From: a virus | Virus record (IMG/VR): IMGVR_UViG_3300023257_000801 | Coordinates: 1 to 23,406 of that record | Length of the DNA stretch: 23,406 bases | Strand: one strand, 5' to 3' | Shown here: positions 3 to 15,443 of the stretch, one piece after another | How the letters are laid out: every line of letters begins with the position of its first letter | How positions within the stretch are numbered: the first letter of the stretch is position 1 | Translations under genes and position numbers: made by a program | Notes under the pieces: model-generated | Databases searched by the model: none | What the model was told of the DNA's origin: nothing | Seen by the model: the letters and a program-made list of their open reading frames with translations, nothing else

Positions 3-1187
3 GTCATCCACTACCTAGTTGACATGCCCATATCGCCTAAGCGGAAAATGTCAAAAGCCGATGTGCGAAATGGGAATATCAATCCGTATGGCAGTATTAT
101 ATATCCGCACCAGCTAAGAGATTGGTCGCTCGATAAAGAAGGACGATTCCGATGGGTGATCATAGAATCAGTTTTCTACAGAGATCTGGACCCAACGGTA
201 GAGAGAGAAGAGGAGCTTCACTATAAGCTTATCACTACAGAAAATTGGGAGATCCAGAATGAAGATGGTGAGTCGGTAAAGTTTGATGACGGTACTCCCC
301 CGAAAGGGGATAACCCGTTAGGGGTGGTTCCCATTGCGACAATGTATCACACAGCCAATTATGGTGATGACAAAATTGGTGAGTCGCTGATAAAGGACGT
401 TGTATTCATAAATAGAGAGATAATGAATTTTTGCTCTCTCATATCAGAGAGTATTGCACGCCAGGCATTTAGCCAATTGGTGGTCCCCGATGATGGCTCA
501 TTGGCCGAGGCCGCAGAGGACGGAACGGCTAATCCGTTAGTAAAACTTGGTACGTCATCCGTGTGGACTTATAGTTCAGAATCACGCACTATGCCTGCTT
601 ACATTTCTCCAGACGCAGAAATTATATCAACAGTATGGAGATTGACGACTGATCTGGTGAAAGAGTGTTTTCGCCTTGCTTCACTTGTTGGTGGAACTTC
701 AGATCTTTACACCCAGTCTTCAGGTCGTCAGTCACAGATGAGCTTTATGGGGGTAAATGCAGCCCTGAGTGATAAAGCTATGTCTTATCAGAAATTTGAA
801 AACAGCCTTTCTAGGTTAGCTCTTATGCAGCTTGGTAAGGATGTTGAGAGTTTTGAAGAAGTGAAATATCCAACCAGTTTTGATATTGCAGCTCTTGAAG
901 AGGAACTTCTAAATTATATGAATATTATGGAGCATAATTTTTCACCAGTTCTCAACAAAACCATACAGAAGAATATAGTGCGAAGAGTTATACCCACCAG
1001 TCCTCAAAGTATTCGTACTCAGATAGAATCGGAGATTGAGAGTGGAGACGGCATAGTTGAACCTGTTGCAGCTAATACAGATAGCCTTACAGATGAGCGC
1101 GGTAATCCAAATACAGACTTAGGTAAAACTACCAAGACTAGTGAACAAAAAACTAAAGAAGGAACAAGTCATAGAAAAGAGAAATAA
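3..1187 (+). CDS. Portal protein, 5' partial
   Basis: Portal proteins form the ring at the head vertex through which DNA is packaged and ejected. The reading frame is open to the left edge (first whole codon at base 3), and the ATG at 24 has no Shine-Dalgarno sequence, so the gene begins outside the window. The visible part opens with a segment reading LVDMP, then NPYGSIIYP and DW-x8-RFRWV, and later a GDDKIGESLIKDV segment followed by a helix-rich stretch (INREIMNFCSLISE). These resemble the wing and stem regions of tailed-phage portals. The C-terminal about 60 residues are charged, Thr/Glu/Lys-rich and probably disordered. Its place upstream of scaffold and capsid genes fits. The family call rests on recognised sequence texture and gene order, not a search. 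Confidence 0.8.
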   Translation, partial: VIHYLVDMPISPKRKMSKADVRNGNINPYGSIIYPHQLRDWSLDKEGRFRWVIIESVFYRDLDPTVEREEELHYKLITTENWEIQNEDGESVKFDDGTPPKGDNPLGVVPIATMYHTANYGDDKIGESLIKDVVFINREIMNFCSLISESIARQAFSQLVVPDDGSLAEAAEDGTANPLVKLGTSSVWTYSSESRTMPAYISPDAEIISTVWRLTTDLVKECFRLASLVGGTSDLYTQSSGRQSQMSFMGVNAALSDKAMSYQKFENSLSRLALMQLGKDVESFEEVKYPTSFDIAALEEELLNYMNIMEHNFSPVLNKTIQKNIVRRVIPTSPQSIRTQIESEIESGDGIVEPVAANTDSLTDERGNPNTDLGKTTKTSEQKTKEGTSHRKEK

Positions 1188-1229
1188 CAATCTATCATGA
1201 TATGCAGTGTTAAATGGAGAATATAACCT

Positions 1230-2573: not shown

Positions 2574-3491
2574 ATGACAGACGAAGAGAAAGCAGCTCAG
2601 GCTGAGGCGGAGGCTAAAGCAGAAGCTGAAGAGAAAGAAGCGGATGCTAAAAAGAAGAAAGAAGGGAAAGACGAAGATGTTGATTCCCTAAAAGAAGAAC
2701 TTAAAAAGGTAATTGGACAAAGGGATTCTGCAAAAACAGATAAACGTAAGCTCAAAAAAGACTTGGATGAGATCAGGAGTACTATAAAAGATATTCCAGA
2801 TAAATCTGATATTGAGACAATGATTGAAGAGCTTAAAGATCTCAAAGAGTATAAAACTGGAGTAACCGAAAAAGAGGAAGAGGACAAACTCAAGAATGCA
2901 GATGAGTTTGAAAGGAAGTCATTAGAGTTTGAAAGACAATTCAATAAGCTGAAAGATAAGATGGCTAGTGAGACAACTGCTCTTTCCTCTAAAGTTGAAG
3001 AAAAAGAAAAAGAATTAGAACAAAAAGAAGAGCATATAAATCTTTTGAGAGGGGCTAAGCTTGAGAATGAGATTACTAAAGTGGCTGTAAAACATAAGGC
3101 ACTTAATCCATCTCAGGTTGTTAGGCTGCTTGAGAGAGAATTTAGTTACGACTCGGATTTGGATAAATTCGTTTTTTTGGAACGTGATGCTAAAGGTAAA
3201 TTGAAGGATGAGAAGACTGTCGAGGAGAGGGTCGAAGACTTTCTATCAGATGAGGACAATGAGAATTTGATAGAAGCTACGATCAATACGGAGGGCACCG
3301 GAACCAAGCAGTCAGAGACGTCTACAACTACTAAGAGCACACAAAAGCAGACAGATGGCTATGACCCAAAAGATGAGGCTCTTATCAAAGAGGCCGATTT
3401 CAAGCGACTTAGTGTTGAGGATTTAATTGATACTAAGAAGCTGAGGGATGCTAAATTTGCTGCAATTGAAGAGAAAAGAAAGAACTTATAA
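2574..3491 (+). CDS. Capsid scaffolding protein
   Basis: Scaffolding proteins nucleate procapsid assembly around the portal and leave before DNA is packaged. This 305-residue protein is very rich in Glu, Lys, Ala and Asp. It has long predicted coiled-coil stretches (about residues 1-60, 70-165) and a more mixed C-terminal part after a Thr/Ser/Gln linker near residues 240-260. It has no signal peptide or catalytic motif. It lies between portal and decoration/major capsid genes, where scaffolds are normally found. The ribosome site GGAGG is about 13 bases from the ATG, somewhat long. The call rests on composition and position; sequence conservation among scaffolds is weak. Confidence 0.75.
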   Translation: MTDEEKAAQAEAEAKAEAEEKEADAKKKKEGKDEDVDSLKEELKKVIGQRDSAKTDKRKLKKDLDEIRSTIKDIPDKSDIETMIEELKDLKEYKTGVTEKEEEDKLKNADEFERKSLEFERQFNKLKDKMASETTALSSKVEEKEKELEQKEEHINLLRGAKLENEITKVAVKHKALNPSQVVRLLEREFSYDSDLDKFVFLERDAKGKLKDEKTVEERVEDFLSDEDNENLIEATINTEGTGTKQSETSTTTKSTQKQTDGYDPKDEALIKEADFKRLSVEDLIDTKKLRDAKFAAIEEKRKNL

Positions 3492-3503
3492 CCCAATGAA
3501 TAT

Positions 3504-3579
3504 GTGGGGGTGAGGAGTAGCTACCTCGTAGAAAGGCACCTATACTGCGTTTCGACCCCCATCACTTAGTATAGGAGGG
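3504..3579 (+). promoter_or_regulatory. Structured leader RNA of HNH gene, pseudoknot on Shine-Dalgarno
   Basis: A G-rich/C-rich stem, GTGGGGGT 3504-3511 with ACCCCCAT 3555-3562 (8 pairs, one G-U), encloses a small hairpin GAGG 3512-3515/CCTC 3524-3527 and a second possible stem CGTAG 3527-3531/CTGCG 3545-3549. Within the enclosed region CCTATACT (3539-3546) is exactly complementary to AGTATAGG (3568-3575), the strand that carries the Shine-Dalgarno GGAGGG (3574-3579). This forms an 8-bp pseudoknot that would hide the ribosome site; part of the second stem competes with it. The same design occurs in the 9176 and 15203 leaders. Confidence 0.6.
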
Positions 3580-3588
3580 TGGTACAAC

Positions 3589-4401
3589 ATGAAATACTGC
3601 GGAAAATGTGGTAATTGGAAGGATGAATCTGCTTTTAGGGTATATAAAGTATTAGACTCAGGTAAGATTTATTATAGACATCCTTGCAGAGATTGTGAGA
3701 ATGCTATAAAGAGATTACGAAGGCAGATAATCAAGGTTCTCAAATACAAAGTTTGGTATGAAGAGAATCAAGAGTATATTGATTTAGGATTGAAGCAATG
3801 TACTGTATGTAATAAATGGAAACCTACAGATGAGTTCTATGCTAGGTATTCCCAATGTAAAGACTGTCACAAAGAGAAGACCCGAAAGAGGTATTATTCT
3901 AGGTCTGAAGAGGCAAAGAAGGCGTATAGAAAAATCTATCGTACTTGGGCCGCCAATAATATAGGCAAGGTACAAGGTTATTCTAAGTGCTACTATGAAA
4001 AGAAGAGGGGTTCTCCCTCTTACAAGATTGGTAAAAATATGTCTAGGGGAATTCATCATTCTTTAGTTGACGGAGAAGGTAAGAATGGCAGACATTGGGA
4101 AGATATTGTAGGTTTCACTATAGATAAACTCAAGGCCTACTTAGAAAGTAACTTTGAGGTAGGTATGTCTTGGAGTAATTACGGGAAGGCTGGATGGCAT
4201 ATAGACCATATTATTCCTAGGAATTCTTATGAATTCACATCCACAGATGACGTGGAGTTTAAAAAATGTTGGAGTTTGGTAAATCTAAGGCCCTGTTGGG
4301 CACTAGAGAATACTTCGATTAAGAAAGATAAAATGGATTGGGATTTAATTAAAAATATCCCTAACTATGAAGATATATTACCAGACAAATTCAATAAGTA
4401 A
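3589..4401 (+). CDS. HNH homing endonuclease with zinc ribbons
   Basis: A free-standing homing endonuclease gene, 270 residues. Its N-terminal half has paired Cys motifs that look like two zinc ribbons (C4-x2-C7 with C33-x2-C36; C71-x2-C74 with C90-x2-C93), likely for DNA binding. The C-terminal half carries an HNH nuclease core: GWHIDHIIP at 202-210 (H204, D206, H207), then N232 and N241 in a NLRP-x6-EN pattern. It sits between scaffold and decoration genes, which are normally adjacent, so it is an insertion in the head module. Its ribosome site is covered by the leader structure described separately. Whether it still cuts DNA is not visible from sequence. Confidence 0.88.
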   Translation: MKYCGKCGNWKDESAFRVYKVLDSGKIYYRHPCRDCENAIKRLRRQIIKVLKYKVWYEENQEYIDLGLKQCTVCNKWKPTDEFYARYSQCKDCHKEKTRKRYYSRSEEAKKAYRKIYRTWAANNIGKVQGYSKCYYEKKRGSPSYKIGKNMSRGIHHSLVDGEGKNGRHWEDIVGFTIDKLKAYLESNFEVGMSWSNYGKAGWHIDHIIPRNSYEFTSTDDVEFKKCWSLVNLRPCWALENTSIKKDKMDWDLIKNIPNYEDILPDKFNK

Positions 4402-5877: not shown

Positions 5878-5909
5878 ACTTATATCATATTTGACATATA
5901 CGATTTTAC

Positions 5910-5938
5910 TTGACATATATGTTCAAATGTGATATAAT
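5910..5938 (+). promoter_or_regulatory. Perfect sigma70-type promoter
   Basis: TTGACA (5910-5915), 17-base spacer, TATAAT (5933-5938), both boxes matching the consensus exactly. The expected start is around 5945, at AAAAGTGGGGATAG. A second TTGACATATA lies 19 bases upstream (5891) without a good -10 box. The downstream promoter at 12363 shares GTGATATAAT and AAAAGTGRGGATAG. It would drive the region 2 genes from a free-standing endonuclease onward. Confidence 0.85.
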
Positions 5939-5945
5939 ATAGTCA

Positions 5946-6002
5946 AAAGTGGGGATAGGGTCATTCCCGAAAAGAGGTTTTCCTGACCTCCCTCCCCACT
6001 TT
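5946..6002 (+). promoter_or_regulatory. 5'-terminal hairpin of the region 2 transcript
   Basis: AAAGTGGGGA (5946-5955) pairs perfectly with TCCCCACTTT (5993-6002). Inside, GGG 5958-5960 can pair with CCC 5990-5992, and GAGGT 5974-5978 with ACCTC 5986-5990. The predicted transcription start lies at or one base before the stem, so the hairpin caps the RNA 5' end. There is no T run directly after it, which argues against a terminator. Unlike the 3504, 9176 and 15203 leaders, I find no long complementarity between its loops and the Shine-Dalgarno region. Confidence 0.55.
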
Positions 6003-6033
6003 AAACTAACAGGGGTTATCTTAGGAGGATAAT

Positions 6034-7389
6034 ATGATTATTAAAGCACAGAAAAATGGTAAAGATGTAGATCTAAGTTTAGTTGGTAAATATGGGTACA
6101 AGTGTGTAAGAGTTTGGTATTCGTGTGATGGGTGTGGGGAGGTCAAAGAAACTGTATGGTATGCTCTTCATAGAAAAGATAGAGTAGAGCACCAATACTG
6201 TAGAAAATGTACCATAAAGAGAAATGGCTCAGTTCAGAAACGAAAAGATACCTGTACAACTAAGTATGGGTCTGACAACCCAATGAAGGTAGAGAAATTT
6301 GTAGATAAGTTCAAACAGAGCAATTGTGATTTACCAAGCCAACAACGAGTTGATGTAAGTGTTATTAGGGAAAGTTTTGAGTCCAAGAAGTACATATTAG
6401 ATGCAGATTTAGAAAAAACTTATGTTAATAATAAAACACCTATAAATTATATTTGTCCTAAAGGACACGATTATTCTATTTCATGGAATAGTTGGATTAA
6501 TGGTAGGGGGTGTTTTGTGTGTGGTAATAGGTTATCTAGAGCTGAACAAGAGATATTTGATTTAATAGAACCTAGTTTTACAGACACCATAAGAAATGAT
6601 AGAACAATAATAAAACCGTTTGAGTTAGATTTGGTAATCCCCTCAAAGAAGTTAGCCATTGAATATTGTGGTTTATACTGGCACTCAGAAAAGTTTAAAA
6701 AAAGCAATTATCATTTAGATAAATTAGAGAAATGTACTAAGGCTGGTTATGATTTGATAACTATATTTGAGGATGAATGGCTTAATCGAAGGGATGTAGT
6801 TGCATCCAGATTATTATATAAGTTAGGGATATCCAATAGTGAAAGAATTGCTGCTCGTAAATGTGAAATTAGAGAAATATCACCTAAAGTAAAGAATGAG
6901 TTCATCAATAAGCACCATCTTCAAGGAGCAGACACTTCTAAAGTTAAGCTGGGGGCATTTTATTCAGATAGGCTTATATCTGTAATGACTTTTGGTAAAC
7001 CTAATGTTTCGAGGCGTAGTGACAATGAATGGGAACTCAACAGGTTCTGTACAGATTTTAATGTTATTTCGGCAGGAATGGCGTCTAAACTTTTTAAGCA
7101 CTTTGTGAAATGTTTTAATCCAAAAACAATGGTAACGTATGGGGATAAAAGATGGTCACGAGGGAATTTGTACCAATACTTAGGATTTGAATATTCACAT
7201 GATTCTAAGCCTAATTACTGGTATATAGTTGGAGATAAGAGAGTACATCGGTTTAACTTCAGAAAATCAGTGCTTTCTAATAAGCTTGAAAATTTTAATA
7301 AGGAACTAACAGAACGTGAGAATATGAGGAATGCAGGATATAGGCGTATATATGATTGTGGTAACACAGCTTGGAAATGGAGTCAATAG
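6034..7389 (+). CDS. EDxHD (Vsr-like) homing endonuclease
   Basis: 451 residues behind a TTAGGAGGATAAT ribosome site. Order of parts: N-terminal Cys-rich finger (C24, C31, C34, C56, C59); a KYGSDNPM motif around 77-84 common in phage homing enzymes; one zinc repeat (about 119-163, NNKTPINYICPKGHDYSISW with closing CFVC) of the kind tandemly repeated in the 9255 gene; the nuclease core ELDLVIPSKKLAIEYCGLYW (197-216) followed by H217, H227 and IFEDEW (244-249), as in the Vsr-related EDxHD family; and a C-terminal domain of about 170 residues (INKHHLQG, GDKRWSRGNLY) shared with Hef-like enzymes. It separates the capsid gene from later structural genes and is first behind a strong promoter. Confidence 0.9.
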   Translation: MIIKAQKNGKDVDLSLVGKYGYKCVRVWYSCDGCGEVKETVWYALHRKDRVEHQYCRKCTIKRNGSVQKRKDTCTTKYGSDNPMKVEKFVDKFKQSNCDLPSQQRVDVSVIRESFESKKYILDADLEKTYVNNKTPINYICPKGHDYSISWNSWINGRGCFVCGNRLSRAEQEIFDLIEPSFTDTIRNDRTIIKPFELDLVIPSKKLAIEYCGLYWHSEKFKKSNYHLDKLEKCTKAGYDLITIFEDEWLNRRDVVASRLLYKLGISNSERIAARKCEIREISPKVKNEFINKHHLQGADTSKVKLGAFYSDRLISVMTFGKPNVSRRSDNEWELNRFCTDFNVISAGMASKLFKHFVKCFNPKTMVTYGDKRWSRGNLYQYLGFEYSHDSKPNYWYIVGDKRVHRFNFRKSVLSNKLENFNKELTERENMRNAGYRRIYDCGNTAWKWSQ

Positions 7390-8733: not shown

Positions 8734-8740
8734 AAGAGAT

Positions 8741-8805
8741 TGATACTGTCCGGTATCATACCGTTACCTCTTCCCAAAAGGAGGTAGCGCACTCTAACAA
8801 AGGGG
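8741..8805 (+). promoter_or_regulatory. Structured leader with alternative hairpins
   Basis: TGATAC (8741-8746) pairs with GTATCA (8753-8758), but CGGTA (8751-8755) can instead pair with TACCG (8759-8763), so the two hairpins exclude each other. A 9-bp stem follows, CGTTACCTC (8762-8770) with GAGGTAGCG (8781-8789, one G-U), which buries an AAAAGGAGG sequence that has no start codon at a usable distance. The working ribosome site appears to be the AAAGGGGATGAT just after it. Confidence 0.45.
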
Positions 8806-8814
8806 ATGATTATT

Positions 8815-9165
8815 TTGGGAACCAGCCATTATCGCAGTTCGCTCCAGGGAAAGGTAGGAACGGAGACAATAAGTAACTTTTCCACTATAACAGCAGATTC
8901 ATTTGTAGGTGCAGTTACAGGAGATGTAACAGGAGATGTGAGTGGTGCAATTGTGAAGGCAACTAGCTATGTGAAGTTGGGTAGTACTGCCTACATATTT
9001 TCTGGTGCGGTATCTACAAACTCCGCATCAATTATTGCAGCTGCTAGTCCATTAGTTTCGGTTGCAAGTTTACCTGGAAGTTTGTACCTTAGTCAAAATT
9101 CGGGTGCAGGTGAAGCATGGATCTTTGTATCTAGCATATTGGCAACTACACTAACTACTGGATAA
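8815..9165 (+). CDS. Small virion (head-fibre-like) protein
   Basis: 116 residues with TTG start. I prefer TTG at 8815 to the ATG at 8806 because the ATG abuts the AGGGG with no spacing, while AGGGGATGATTAT-TTG matches the spacing and texture of neighbouring starts (for example AGGAGTGATTTTC-ATG). The product is Ser/Ala/Thr/Val-rich with a GAVTGDVTGDVSGA repeat at about 33-46, a pattern seen in phage head fibres and other virion decorations. No Cys, few charged residues. Structural role is inferred from composition and context. Confidence 0.65.
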   Translation: MGTSHYRSSLQGKVGTETISNFSTITADSFVGAVTGDVTGDVSGAIVKATSYVKLGSTAYIFSGAVSTNSASIIAAASPLVSVASLPGSLYLSQNSGAGEAWIFVSSILATTLTTG

Positions 9166-9175
9166 ACTATTTAAC

Positions 9176-9247
9176 ATAGGGTAAGAGTCTAATTAACTCT
9201 GAATGGGGGTGCCTTAATCACCCCCAACCCTTAACCTATTAAGGAGG
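9176..9247 (+). promoter_or_regulatory. Pseudoknotted leader RNA, copy 1
   Basis: Outer stem ATAGGGTAAG 9176-9185/CTTAACCTAT 9230-9239 (one mismatch); hairpin AGAGT 9184-9188/ACTCT 9196-9200; hairpin GGGGGTG 9205-9211/CACCCCC 9219-9225. The 7-base loop CCTTAAT (9212-9218) is the exact complement of ATTAAGG (9238-9244), which runs into the AAGGAGG ribosome site of the endonuclease at 9255. Adjacent stems share one or two bases, so alternative states are likely. Copy 2 at 15203 is 68/72 identical, and all four differences preserve this pairing. Confidence 0.85.
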
Positions 9248-9254
9248 AATTGAG

Positions 9255-10484
9255 ATGGGAAAGAAATTAACGATTGAGTATGTGAGAGGCAAAATTGAAG
9301 AAATTAAGTACAGGTTGTTGAGTAATGTATATGTTAATAGCAAGCATAAATTAAAAATTAAATGTGATAAGGGTCATGAGTATTTAAGTACTTGGGGTAA
9401 TTTTTATGCTGGTAGTAGGTGTCCTAAGTGTTACCCCAATAGAAAGAAAACCATTGATGAGATTAGGATTTATATTGAGAGTAAGGGGTATAAGCTTTTG
9501 AGTAATGTATATATTAATGCCTTTGATAAATTATTACTTAGGTGTAGTAGAGGGCATGAGTATAAGGTTATTTGGAATAATTTTCAGCAGGGGCAGGGAG
9601 GCTGTCCAGAGTGTGACCCTTCCAGGAAGAAAACTATAGAAGAGGTTAGGGCTTATATTGAAAATATGGGGTATAAGCTTTTATCTAATGAGTATGTTAA
9701 TAATAAGACTGAGTTACTTATTAGATGTCCAGATGGTCATGAATTTTATACGAATTGGGAATATTTTAGTAGTGATCGTAGATGCTCAGAGTCAAGAGGG
9801 AGTAGACGTAAAACAATAGAAGGAATTAGGGAATATATCGAAAGTGAAGATTATGAACTTTTGTCTACAGAATATATAAATGCACATACAAAGATGCTAA
9901 TGAAATGTGATAAGGGGCATAAGCTTTGGATGAGTTGGGACGCCTTTGGTATAGCGGGTACTAGATGTACTAAGTGCTCTGGACGCGGAAAGAAAACTAT
10001 AGAAGAAATTAGGAGTGAGATAGGAAAGATTAAATATGTTCTTAAAACTGACGTATATAAAAATAATAATACTAAAATGTTAATGGAATGTAATGAGGGG
10101 CATGAATTTTGGATGAGTTGGAGCTCCTTTAGGGGGGGTACTAGATGTAGGAAATGCTATGAGAAGAAAAAAATTAAATATAGGGGGGATAGTATTATAG
10201 ATTACTATTCATATAGAGAATGTGTGGATAGATTAACTAATCATAGCTATCATAAGTATTTTTATCGGATAAACCCCCAAAAATACAAAAGAAGTAGTAT
10301 GGGATATCATTTAGATCATATATTTTCTGTTGCTGATGGTTATAAGTATAATATACTCCCTAGAATTATAGCCAGTCCTATTAATCTGCAGATGCTCCCA
10401 GCCACGGAAAACATAAGAAAGAGAGATGTGTCTGCTATAACAAGAAAAGAATTACTTAAACGATATAAAGAACTTTGTTTATAG
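9255..10484 (+). CDS. HNH homing endonuclease with five zinc repeats
   Basis: 409 residues behind AAGGAGGAATTGAG. It has five tandem modules of about 58-61 residues (roughly 1-59, 63-120, 124-180, 183-241, 245-301), each running KKTIEEIRxYIE, YxLLSxxYxN, a Cys before KGHEF, a Trp, and a closing CxxC. They are likely treble-clef-type zinc domains that bind DNA. The third has CSES instead of CxxC and may have lost its metal. The C-terminus carries an HNH-type core: YHLDHIFSV (351-359), N377, and N386 in LPATENIRK. It is a free-standing homing endonuclease inserted between small virion-type genes, with its own structured leader and a large inverted repeat after the stop. Confidence 0.88.
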   Translation: MGKKLTIEYVRGKIEEIKYRLLSNVYVNSKHKLKIKCDKGHEYLSTWGNFYAGSRCPKCYPNRKKTIDEIRIYIESKGYKLLSNVYINAFDKLLLRCSRGHEYKVIWNNFQQGQGGCPECDPSRKKTIEEVRAYIENMGYKLLSNEYVNNKTELLIRCPDGHEFYTNWEYFSSDRRCSESRGSRRKTIEGIREYIESEDYELLSTEYINAHTKMLMKCDKGHKLWMSWDAFGIAGTRCTKCSGRGKKTIEEIRSEIGKIKYVLKTDVYKNNNTKMLMECNEGHEFWMSWSSFRGGTRCRKCYEKKKIKYRGDSIIDYYSYRECVDRLTNHSYHKYFYRINPQKYKRSSMGYHLDHIFSVADGYKYNILPRIIASPINLQMLPATENIRKRDVSAITRKELLKRYKELCL

Positions 10485-10488
10485 TGCA

Positions 10489-10539
10489 ACATATATTGCA
10501 CATTAAATCCTATTTTGGTGTTTAATGTGCAATATATGT
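10489..10539 (+). repeat. Perfect 19-bp inverted repeat after endonuclease gene
   Basis: ACATATATTGCACATTAAA (10489-10507) and its exact reverse complement (10521-10539) flank a 13-base loop. Three more pairs form beyond one mismatch (10485-10487 with 10541-10543, one G-U). No T run follows, so it is not a standard intrinsic terminator, though it could block read-through or protect the RNA 3' end. It starts four bases after the endonuclease stop. The remaining bases to 10650 hold no convincing gene. Confidence 0.8.
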
Positions 10540-10664
10540 CGTATTATCCTTCCATATAAAAATTTATTACTTCCTTCTACTATTGATCTGTTGCTGTATA
10601 TTTCTCAATCTCACGCTCGCGCTGTTTGGAAGATGTTATTATCTTAATTTAAGGAGTGATTTTC

Positions 10665-12334: not shown

Positions 12335-12362
12335 AAATCGACTATACCATGTCGCTTTTTAC
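12335..12362 (+). terminator. Possible weak terminator after endolysin
   Basis: AAAAATCGAC pairs with GTCGCTTTTT across an 8-base loop (TATACCAT), with one T-C mismatch, giving a short stem flanked by A and T runs just after the endolysin stop. The GC core is only 4 bp, so the call is weak. A promoter follows directly, which makes a transcript boundary plausible. Confidence 0.4.
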
Positions 12363-12391
12363 TTGACTTTTGAGTCAAAGTGTGATATAAT
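12363..12391 (+). promoter_or_regulatory. Sigma70-type promoter, second copy of phage promoter
   Basis: TTGACT (12363-12368), 17-base spacer, TATAAT (12386-12391). Its surroundings match the promoter at 5910: GTGATATAAT over the -10 box and AAAAGTGAGGATAG at the predicted start near 12398. It would transcribe the protease gene at 12441 and possibly the glycan genes beyond, as no other promoter of this quality is evident up to 23406. Confidence 0.8.
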
Positions 12392-12440
12392 GTACTTAAA
12401 AGTGAGGATAGTTAAATAAATAATATAAAGGAGAAGAAAG

Positions 12441-13214
12441 ATGAGATCTTTAATAATTCTAGCTCTGAGTATGTTATTGGCATTGGGTTTCTGTTCTCCA
12501 ACATTGGGACAGGAGATCGAAGAAAAGATTTGTCCTGTAAAAGACCATCTTGATGTAGATAATGTTGAACAATGTTTTAAATGCCATATGGCGGGCACAT
12601 TCAAGGTTAGGAAAGTTAACCCCCTTGATAGATATCTATTGCCAGATATAACTGGTGTGAAGATATCTTATAATGATAATGATGATTTAACCTTTTATTA
12701 TGTTTTAGGTGATATCAATGATGGTGCCATATTCACTGTCATTAAATGGTTAGATTGGCACCCGGAAATTATAAACCTAATTGTTGAAATTCAAAGTCCG
12801 GGGGGATCATTACTAAACGCTTGGCGAGTCATAGGTCTTTTGGAGGCTTGGAAGATTAGAGGTACTGGGCGCTCAATCGAAACAAGAGTAAATGGCTTAG
12901 CTGCAAGTGCTGGACTTTTGATTTTTATGGTGGGGAATATTCGATCTGCAAGCCCCACTGCAGAATTAATGTGGCATGAGGTATCTATGACCGGCTATGG
13001 ATTTCACAGAAGCACGTCGTCAAATACTACAGAAAAAGCAAAAACTTTATCTCATTTGCAAAATACAGCAACAGAATATATATCTAGTAGATGTGGCATG
13101 ACACAGGAACAATTATTGGACGCAATACGGGATGGGAAGGAATTTTGGATAAATGGCAAGGAAGCCAAGGAATTAGGTGTTGCAACAAAACTACTTTGGG
13201 GAAACAATCAATAA
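12441..13214 (+). CDS. Exported ClpP-like serine protease with CxxCH motif
   Basis: 257 residues behind AAAGGAGAAGAAAG. Residues 1-23 form a signal peptide. The mature N-terminus has CFKCH (45-49), the covalent haem-binding pattern of c-type cytochromes, although it could bind metal instead. From about 80 it follows the ClpP/crotonase-type serine protease fold: oxyanion loop SPGG (119-122), nucleophile S156 in LAASAG, and base H179 in MWHE. The acidic third residue is uncertain (D231 or E234), near EFWINGKEAKELGVA, which corresponds to the ClpP C-terminal motif. An exported, single-domain ClpP relative cannot work with a cytoplasmic Clp ATPase, so it may process or destroy envelope or virion proteins. 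Confidence 0.82.
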   Translation: MRSLIILALSMLLALGFCSPTLGQEIEEKICPVKDHLDVDNVEQCFKCHMAGTFKVRKVNPLDRYLLPDITGVKISYNDNDDLTFYYVLGDINDGAIFTVIKWLDWHPEIINLIVEIQSPGGSLLNAWRVIGLLEAWKIRGTGRSIETRVNGLAASAGLLIFMVGNIRSASPTAELMWHEVSMTGYGFHRSTSSNTTEKAKTLSHLQNTATEYISSRCGMTQEQLLDAIRDGKEFWINGKEAKELGVATKLLWGNNQ

Positions 13215-13693: not shown

Positions 13694-15211
13694 ATGACAG
13701 ATAAAGAATTGTATTTTGGGCCGGACGAGAAGATAGTGGTATTCTTTTCAATATCAGAATTAGGTTGGCACTTACAGATGCTACAAGGACGTATGAGACA
13801 ACTCAAACAAACTAAGTATCCAGATCATAAGTTCATTTGTTTTTGTGATTTAGATAGGCACGTATTTCATCAAGATTTCGTATTCACAACAATCGCCCTT
13901 CCCAACTTTTTCTACGAAGCGGGGCTAGAGCGAGATTGCTTTGAGGCACCTCCTCCAGAGTCTCCTCCAGGAGCACTTACAGATCCAGTTATGTATGCTC
14001 GTCTGATAGAGTACTTTAGGGGATTCTACGATCATACTTCTGAAAATACTGTGGAAATTTGGCCACCTAGAGGTTGCAGTCAATGGGCTAAGAATCAAAT
14101 TCAACTTTTCTGCAAATACACGACTGCGCCAATCCCCAATGAACGTCCGGTCATAACGATTTTTCCAAGGGGAAGGGCGAGAGCGGCAAATAGAAACGTA
14201 CCACCCTCTGTTTGGCACGGGATAGTGGATAGTCTGAAACAGACATTCACAGTAGTTTTAGCGGGCACACCGGAAGGTGCTTGTTTAGGCAATTATCCGA
14301 AAGACCAAAGTGTGATTAATTTGATAAGCGATACTCCAGATACTGAACGAATTATACAGTGGCTTAATACAAGTGTATGTTCCATTTCTTCACAGAGTGG
14401 GGGAACTCATATTAGCTTACTTTCAGGATGTCCTTCATATATCATAGGCCACGAAAGACAACGCCATTGTGTAGACGAAAATAGACTTAACACACCAACT
14501 ACTTTTAGAACTGTCCCTGGGAATAGTTATATGAGTATTAGTGCGGAGCAGGTGTTGGATGATGTGCAAACTTTTCTTTATAACTTGCAAGAGGCTGGCA
14601 TGTTCGAAAAATTGGACCGCCCGGCTCTTCGCAATTTACAAGGTCAGAAAGATCTTGTTGGTGTTGAGTTAGGAGTTTTCAAGGCGGCTAATGCAGCGAA
14701 TATTCTTCAGTTCCTTGACATTAAGAAGCTGTATTTAGTTGACCCATTTCTTAGTTATGCAGGGAAAGAATTGGACGTGAAGACTTCAGAGGAAATTGAA
14801 AAAACAGCAAACCTTAATTTGAGGCAGTATCCAGCAGACAAGGTGGAGTGGATTAAAAAGAAATCTGTTGATGCTGTTGATGACATCCCAGATGATTTGG
14901 ATTTTTGTTATCTTGATTCTGATCATACTTACGAAAATGTTATGGTTGAGCTTGAATTATACTACAAAAAAGTCAAAGATGGTGGAGTTATTGGTGGCCA
15001 CGATTACGATAAATCCTCTGCAGACAATGGGGTAAAACGTGCAGTGGACAGCTTTTTTAAGGAGAAGGGTTTGGAAGTTCATTCTAAGATGTGTCGTGAT
15101 AGTGGAGGTCATACTATAGATTGGTGGGTAATAAAACCTACTACGTATGATAAAGTGTTAGAGAGAGACGCAGATATTCTAAGAGAAATGATAGATAAGT
15201 CAATAGGGTAA
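13694..15211 (+). CDS. Glycosyltransferase-methyltransferase fusion
   Basis: 505 residues behind TTTAGAGGAGAT. The N-terminal part (about 1-300) looks like a GT-B glycosyltransferase of the heptosyltransferase/GT9 type: VITIFPRGRARAANRNVP (153-170), a VVLAGTPEG strand-turn (188-195) and a SQSGGTHISLLSGCPSYIIG acceptor/donor loop (233-252). The C-terminal part (about 315-482) is a class I SAM methyltransferase (Methyltransf_24-like): GVELGVFKAANA (323-334), YLVDPF (347-352), CYLDSDHTYENV (405-416) and GGVIGGHDY (430-438). Together they could add and methylate a sugar. Its last two codons and stop (ATA GGG TAA) belong to the repeated leader element at 15203. Confidence 0.75.
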   Translation: MTDKELYFGPDEKIVVFFSISELGWHLQMLQGRMRQLKQTKYPDHKFICFCDLDRHVFHQDFVFTTIALPNFFYEAGLERDCFEAPPPESPPGALTDPVMYARLIEYFRGFYDHTSENTVEIWPPRGCSQWAKNQIQLFCKYTTAPIPNERPVITIFPRGRARAANRNVPPSVWHGIVDSLKQTFTVVLAGTPEGACLGNYPKDQSVINLISDTPDTERIIQWLNTSVCSISSQSGGTHISLLSGCPSYIIGHERQRHCVDENRLNTPTTFRTVPGNSYMSISAEQVLDDVQTFLYNLQEAGMFEKLDRPALRNLQGQKDLVGVELGVFKAANAANILQFLDIKKLYLVDPFLSYAGKELDVKTSEEIEKTANLNLRQYPADKVEWIKKKSVDAVDDIPDDLDFCYLDSDHTYENVMVELELYYKKVKDGGVIGGHDYDKSSADNGVKRAVDSFFKEKGLEVHSKMCRDSGGHTIDWWVIKPTTYDKVLERDADILREMIDKSIG

Positions 15212-15274
15212 GAGTCTAATTAACTCTGAATGGGGGTGCCTCTATCACCCCCAACCCTTAACCTATAGAGGAGG
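15203..15274 (+). promoter_or_regulatory. Pseudoknotted leader RNA, copy 2
   Basis: Same fold as copy 1: outer stem 15203-15212/15257-15266, hairpin 15211-15215/15223-15227, hairpin GGGGGTG 15232-15238/CACCCCC 15246-15252. Loop CCTCTAT (15239-15245) pairs with ATAGAGG (15265-15271), which overlaps the AGAGGAGG ribosome site. Compared with copy 1, two loop bases and their two partner bases have changed together. The element begins inside the upstream coding sequence and supplies its stop codon. Confidence 0.85.
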
Positions 15275-15281
15275 TAGAGAG

Positions 15282-15425
15282 ATGCGTAGTAATAAGAAAA
15301 AAACAATAGAATTTATTATGGGGTATGCCGCAGGTAGGAGAGGGGATGAGCTCTTATCCAAGATATACATAAACAATAAGATTAAGTTGAAATTTAAGTG
15401 TGGTAGAAAAGGGCACATATTTTGA
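15282..15425 (+). pseudogene. Homing-endonuclease zinc-repeat remnant, 47 codons
   Basis: The frame starts correctly after the copy 2 leader and encodes one partial repeat of the family found in the 9255 gene: KKTIEFIMGYAAG, then DELLSKIYINNKIKLKFKC and GHIF. It matches the consensus KKTIEEIRxYIE-YxLLSxxYxN-TKLLxxC-KGHEF. It stops at a TGA where the Trp and closing CxxC should follow, and no nuclease domain remains. The next gene starts 18 bases on, in the same frame. Most likely a decayed or deleted homing endonuclease; a small functional DNA-binding peptide is less likely because half the zinc site is gone. Confidence 0.75.
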
Positions 15426-15443
15426 TCTACAAGAGAGGAATGT

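Follow-up and report, generated by a model that had tools for sequence, protein, structure and literature searches.

In the preQ1-II and SAM-II riboswitches, a loop pairs with the Shine-Dalgarno (SD) region, and a three-way junction combined with a pseudoknot on the SD is typical riboswitch anatomy. The operator of T4 gene 32, a replication gene, is an autogenous, protein-bound pseudoknot and not a kissing loop on the SD. Among the homing endonuclease genes (HEGs) of the T4 group, RNA hairpins hide the ribosome site of I-TevI, I-TevII, I-TevIII, segB and Aeh1 mobE, and in the T4 scheme a late promoter inside the structure trims the hairpin and frees the SD (PMC2988022). T4 gene 32 is a precedent for translational control by a phage leader pseudoknot (PMC535899). 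Here we analyse a 72-nt element that, judging from its sequence, we take with a probability of about 0.7 to be the 5' leader of a mobile HEG, acting as a cis-acting translational lock.

The stretch of DNA analysed (the window) is the whole 23,406-nt IMG/VR virus record IMGVR_UViG_3300023257_000801. It carries two copies of the element, both 72 nt long and differing at four bases, with the following parts.

9176-9247, plus strand: leader copy 1
9178-9182 and 9227-9231, plus strand: outer stem P1 of copy 1
9184-9188 and 9196-9200, plus strand: hairpin P2 of copy 1, loop CUAAUUA
9204-9211 and 9219-9226, plus strand: hairpin P3 of copy 1
9212-9218, plus strand: loop L3 of copy 1, CCUUAAU
9238-9244, plus strand: L4 of copy 1, the SD strand, AUUAAGG
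9235-9237 and 9245-9247, plus strand: stem P4 of copy 1, CCU and AGG
15203-15274, plus strand: leader copy 2, folded as copy 1
15239-15245, plus strand: loop L3 of copy 2, CCUCUAU
15265-15271, plus strand: L4 of copy 2, AUAGAGG

In DNA letters, L3 is CCTTAAT in copy 1 and CCTCTAT in copy 2, L4 is ATTAAGG and ATAGAGG, respectively, and each L3 is the exact reverse complement of its own L4, the four differences making two compensatory pairs. On re-check, the sequence-only reading was exact on both the four differences and their compensatory nature, and the outer stem with two hairpins that it had drawn is the minimum-energy fold (P1, P2 and P3; z = -3.1 for 9176-9240). Folds that include the SD region have ordinary single-sequence energies compared with shuffles (z about -1), and the case therefore rests on covariation. 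In six window-type leaders, four of them from other contigs, 26/26 pairs hold in every sequence, 13 with double changes, and the covariation score is 0.569 against 0.250 for shuffled alignments (0/500 shuffles as high). The 7-bp pseudoknot that had been proposed on the ribosome site thus stands as a covarying pairing, with its form revised: because L4 usually sits in the loop of hairpin P4, it belongs to the kissing-loop class, and in most relatives it is a kissing loop with this SD hairpin. P4 is weak in copies 1 and 2, at only 3 bp. The stop codon TAA of the upstream ORF 13694-15211 falls inside copy 2, at 15209-15211.

The pairing of the loops was assessed with a pattern that leaves three bases free in each loop (GTGCC-NNN-ATCAC ... 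TAT-NNN-GGAG), searched in IMG/VR. The free triplets were exact complements in 51 of 67 distinct matches, where chance (about 1 in 64) would give about one; loop and ribosome site do not vary independently. Pairs 2-4 of P4 and 4-7 of P3, most of which the pattern leaves open, formed in 86-100% of these 51 leaders compared with about 31-44% of the 16 others, in which P3/P4 pairing was not above background; for the P4 pairs alone, the range in these others was 38-44%. When the pseudoknot was included in the structure, 95.7% of cells in the 51 leaders were paired (76.2% shuffled) and covariation was 0.492 (0.131 shuffled, 0/500), a signal that was lost when the partner was slid by one to three bases; because the 51 had been chosen for complementary loops, only P3 and P4 are independent evidence in this score, and the evidence for loop pairing is the 51/67. 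For the leader alignments, linkers that differed in length were spliced out of the sequences, and one alignment had its rows arranged by structure, which biases it towards that structure.

Relatives were found in unrelated viral contigs of IMG/VR with a pattern of P3 loop plus SD. A second pattern that left the SD unspecified returned more, and every match with the TTTGTAGCTACA-type 5' motif has the exact loop complement on the SD. At the core of the class, hairpin P3 presents a loop of 6-7 nt, L3 (usually CCNNNAU), that is exactly complementary to L4 (usually AUNNNGG), the loop of the SD-bearing hairpin P4. In nearly all relatives the SD strand is itself the P4 loop, as in L057 (P4 ACUCU[AUUGAGG]AGAGU, L3 CCUCAAU) and L028 (P4 UUAUCUCU[AUAAAGG]AGGGAUAA, L3 CCUUUAU). 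P1 and P2 form a three-way junction in the window type; elsewhere they vary or are missing. A structural descriptor of the core gave 51 matches in real sequence and 3 in shuffled sequence at a score of at least 28, and 37 and 0, respectively, at a score of at least 32. After further scans there were 92 distinct descriptor matches at a score of at least 29, a few of them probably due to chance (L014, L036 near 1200, L182, L197, L223 and the second L219). In all, the scans gave about 90 distinct leaders in unrelated phages. These IMG/VR scans thus yielded the further copies before endonuclease-type genes, with further paired changes, that the sequence-only reading had called for.

When 80 EndoVII loci were retrieved solely on the basis of their protein, 7 had a descriptor match, some from near-duplicate contigs. 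A prokaryote genome scan gave 16 matches, among which only L036 is a leader by the descriptor; no leader was present upstream of the HEGs sampled from about 16 named phages, and BLASTN of the leaders against named phages and plasmids gave no full-length match. Strict orthogonality of L3/L4 pairs within one phage was ruled out by L148 and L151, in each of which one loop occurs twice. In L015, L029, L053, L145, L181 and L213 the leader begins shortly past the 3' end of a tRNA gene, as if the cassettes of these six phages favoured tRNA 3' ends.

The genes behind the leaders are mostly of endonuclease type. Among 82 downstream ORFs, Pfam matches were to Endonuclease_7 (19), HNH (10) and HNH_5 (6), and further to NUMOD3, GIY-YIG, MUG113, SegE, T5orf172, DUF4379 and PDDEXK_5, and many ORFs lacking a Pfam match resemble HNH or EndoVII by eye. 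For a minority of leaders, the next gene is not an obvious HEG but encodes a primase (L149), an HTH_36 protein (L030 and L152), a DUF5055 protein (L180) or a secreted protein (L022/L036). One leader fold is thereby common to EndoVII, HNH, GIY-YIG and DUF4379 endonucleases in unrelated phages. This breadth bears on autogenous control, in which a zinc-finger endonuclease would bind its own leader and stabilise the closed form. Several of the proteins do contain treble-clef zinc fingers, and T4 gene 32 offers a phage precedent for such control at an mRNA pseudoknot, but the same leader serves unrelated endonuclease folds and the L3/L4 sequences differ freely, which makes this explanation very improbable.

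The window itself holds two more leaders of this kind and the genes that follow, together with a scar of a lost HEG. The sequence-only reading had passed over these two leaders, as it had the kiss with an SD hairpin and the spread of the class across unrelated phages and endonuclease folds.

1185-1225, plus strand: scar holding only the last codons of a lost HEG; leader and HEG are present in L003 at 2937-4080
3504-3582 (approximate), plus strand: third leader, same plan, before a HEG ORF
3589-4401, plus strand: HNH-type ORF behind the third leader, assigned by eye, no Pfam match
5910-5938, plus strand: perfect sigma-70-type promoter, TTGACA-17-TATAAT, which would start transcription at the fourth leader
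5946-6033 (approximate), plus strand: fourth leader, Rfam int-alpA RNA (5948-6014) plus SD hairpin
6034-7389, plus strand: ORF behind the int-alpA leader, with DUF7487, MTES_1575-like nuclease and Mom-like domains; endonuclease-type
9255-10484, plus strand: endonuclease-type ORF behind copy 1, with CapR/DUF4379 treble-clef zinc-finger repeats and a C-terminal HNH-like end
15282-15440, plus strand: relic of the endonuclease gene behind copy 2, with an internal deletion after 15424

The third leader consists of P1 (GGGGGU/ACCCCC), P2 (GAGG(AGUAGCUA)CCUC), P4 (CACUU/AGGGUG) and a P3 loop, ACCUAUACU, whose 8-nt complement AGUAUAGG (3568-3575) lies on the SD. In the fourth leader, UUAGGA (6021-6026) in the loop of the SD hairpin is a possible partner for L3 (UUUUCCUGA, 5978-5986), and CAGGGG just upstream of UUAGGA is an alternative one. 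The int-alpA assignment (RF02996) scores 38.8 bits against a gathering cut-off of 35.8; L003 9364-9433 also exceeds this cut-off and is likewise followed by an endonuclease-type ORF. The int-alpA model did not match copy 1 (121 nt searched) even at E values up to 10, and in a search of the whole window it matched neither copy. The other Rfam matches in the window were chance matches to animal families below gathering, and an Rfam search of the leaders returned no family other than int-alpA and no riboswitch family. A hammerhead-type ribozyme was rejected by eye, as the junction does not fit its consensus. A flavivirus xrRNA was also rejected: its topology is alike on paper, but its sole match, on the minus strand (E = 8), is chance.

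Other structured elements were seen in the same region. The promoter regions at 12357-12411 and 5904-5958 are 80% alike, with a TTGAC...GTCAA-like inverted repeat around each -35 box, and at 12357 an int-alpA-like leader is reduced to its first bases, ahead of a Clp-protease-like ORF. Another structured leader, at 8735-8826 in the window and about 11653-11760 in L003, precedes ORF 8806-9165, which shows no sign of encoding an endonuclease. Its P2 (TGATAC(tgtcc)GGTATCA versus CTACAT(tgtcc)GATGTAG) and P3 (TACCTC/GAGGTA versus TTGCC/GGCAA) covary between the two phages, the loop UGUCC and the junction UACCG are kept, and its P3 loop is again able to pair with the SD (UUCCC:GGGGA; CCCUU:AAGGG). 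Behind the endonuclease gene, a long hairpin (window 10481-10547; L003 about 13112-13190) shows compensatory changes between the phages (GCACATTAAA/TTTAATGTGC versus GCTCATTAAG/CTTAATGAGC) and is perhaps the transcript end.

The behaviour of the cassettes was revealed by comparison with contig 3300025697_001371, of which L002 and L003 are pieces. This contig is about 94-99% identical to the window over most shared stretches and has endonuclease cassettes at other sites. Leader and HEG are gained and lost together between the window and L003: the scar at 1185-1225 faces a complete cassette, whereas the third leader and its ORF are missing at the same site in L003 (5458-5506). The gene reduced to a relic behind copy 2 is intact in the related contig (L002 3701-4465). 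Around copy 1, a 116-nt run (window 9172-9287) covering the leader and the first codons is identical to L003, whereas the proteins are 35% identical (106/304); similarly, L003 retains the leader at the int-alpA site with another endonuclease type behind it (9456-10562). Because the leader is kept while the gene behind it differs at these two sites, the leaders appear to be reused with different endonucleases. The major capsid gene of this sister phage is broken at two places (L003 6014-7494 and 8286-8400), with inserted ORFs and matches to group I introns; the capsid gene of the window is uninterrupted.

Travel with a mobile gene and the long identical run around copy 1 would also be expected if the inverted repeats acted as DNA, as a recombination site or endonuclease target, with the position of the SD incidental. 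However, L4 always bears the SD at start-codon distance, P4 tolerates G-U pairs, and the L3/L4 sequences vary freely while their complementarity stays, so that a role as DNA is hardly credible.

The geometry of the start site is consistent with a translational lock. The 3' end of L4 lies a median of 8 nt upstream of the start codon, and the GG of L4 together with the AGAG/AGG of P4 is therefore taken as the SD. Promoters matching at least 10/12 positions of the sigma-70-type consensus, the only type searched, were found within 110 nt upstream of 18/84 leaders (1.95 expected), and in several leaders the -10 box lies merely 4-11 nt ahead of P3. Since promoters, where found, sit just upstream of the leader or P3, the transcripts would contain both P3 and P4. 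This argues against temporal control of the T4 type, the logic described for I-TevI, segB and Aeh1 mobE (PMC2988022), in which read-through transcripts would be locked and a promoter inside the leader would give one-armed transcripts translated late. With the whole lock in the transcript, and no sigma-70-type promoter-like site within either copy 1 or copy 2 on the coding strand, we regard such control as quite improbable here. Some leaders whose transcripts would start at P3 (the second copy of L028, L189, L191 and L202) are missing P2, and P1 and P2 are dispensable in some leaders.

In the favoured reading, the translational lock, L3 of P3 would pair with L4 of P4 just before the start codon, a pairing that covariation itself shows, and the SD would be paired twice over, one part of it in L4 and the other in the 3' arm of P4. 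In the window type, the three-way junction of P1 and P2 would position P3. The lock would depend on the kiss, given that the window copies have a weak P4 and that, for some leaders, a fold computed with the kiss left out exposes the SD. The leader structure is shown by covariation at the sequence level, and from it we infer translational repression: ribosomes would start only once the kissing loop and P4 open, the endonuclease would be produced in small amounts and protected against read-through transcription at any site where the cassette has inserted, and the leader would be a part of the mobile unit that is reused with unrelated endonucleases. Of the translational switch proposed earlier for an HEG cassette, the covarying pseudoknot on the ribosome site and the cassette are retained; a switch or sensor is a possible alternative to a fixed brake.

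Sensing was considered in two forms. In the first, the junction and P2 would sense a metabolite, an ion or a phage protein and would make or break the pairing between L3 and L4 at a particular stage of infection. The three-way junction with its SD pseudoknot resembles riboswitch anatomy, P2 loops are non-random, and the window-type junction bases recur (UA in J1/2, GAA/GUA in J2/3; int-alpA keeps UA and GAAAA). However, many leaders lack P1 and the junction, some lack P2, and no long unpaired core is conserved in all leaders, which leaves regulated switching an unlikely explanation. The second form concerns P2, whose loops are often self-complementary. A 6-nt palindrome occurs in 16/34 distinct P2 loops of 6-9 nt, where letter shuffling would be expected to give 2.5 (highest count 9 in 20,000 shuffles), among loops that are not fully independent because related leaders are included. 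Hairpin picking favours 6-nt loops, yet 13/23 loops of 7-9 nt also contain such a palindrome. The palindromes (UAAUUA, UAGCUA, UUAUAA, UGUACA, UGAUCA, UCAUGA and CGGCCG) differ between leaders, for example between window 9189-9195, L009, L148, L151 and L194. Leaders might work in pairs, with copies kissing through P2 and thereby coupling the SD lock to leader concentration or phage copy number, a proposal to which we give slightly less credence than to regulated switching. If true, P2 kissing would be a copy-number sensor for homing endonucleases. Local loop geometry would fit the palindromes as an alternative.

The translational lock, if correct, has several implications. Control of free-standing homing endonucleases, which are common selfish phage genes, is known for a few T4-group cases only, and a fold shared by several endonuclease types and unrelated phages points to one general solution against harm to the host phage. 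The leader class gives the int-alpA family a testable function and provides a marker for HEG cassettes in metagenomes, and its natural matched kissing-loop pairs could be used as designable translation controls.

A search of the open-licence literature brought up no account of homing-endonuclease leaders with a kissing loop, and an earlier description elsewhere is possible. The suggestion that the element is undescribed is supported by the absence of Rfam matches for the two copies and weakened by int-alpA, which occurs in the same window and shares its topology. Both int-alpA and the window-type leaders have a P1-P2-P3 three-way junction with UA in J1/2 and a P3 loop whose complement lies 3' of P1. 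The Rfam consensus is itself complementary in this way (P3 loop aaCCuUua, 3' strand uaAgGG), and two E. coli copies covary at the loop pairing (GCCUUA:UAAGGC and ACCUUA:UAAGGU). In E. coli, however, where the RNA follows an integrase gene and precedes a gene of unknown function, the strand that pairs is situated upstream of the start region; no description of int-alpA function was found in the open-licence literature, the original description probably lying outside that scope. The preQ1-II and SAM-II riboswitches differ in that the present leaders match no riboswitch family, have a freely variable loop and precede endonuclease genes, not metabolic genes. T4 gene 32 shares with them a phage leader pseudoknot, whereas the kissing loop on the SD is found only here. 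The T4-group HEG leaders likewise bury a homing-endonuclease SD in RNA structure. In contrast to the hairpins used there, the leaders described here have a hairpin-hairpin kissing lock with the promoter upstream, and they occur with many endonuclease folds and in many phages. We therefore rate RNA-hidden HEG ribosome sites as already known, and this architecture and its breadth as new.
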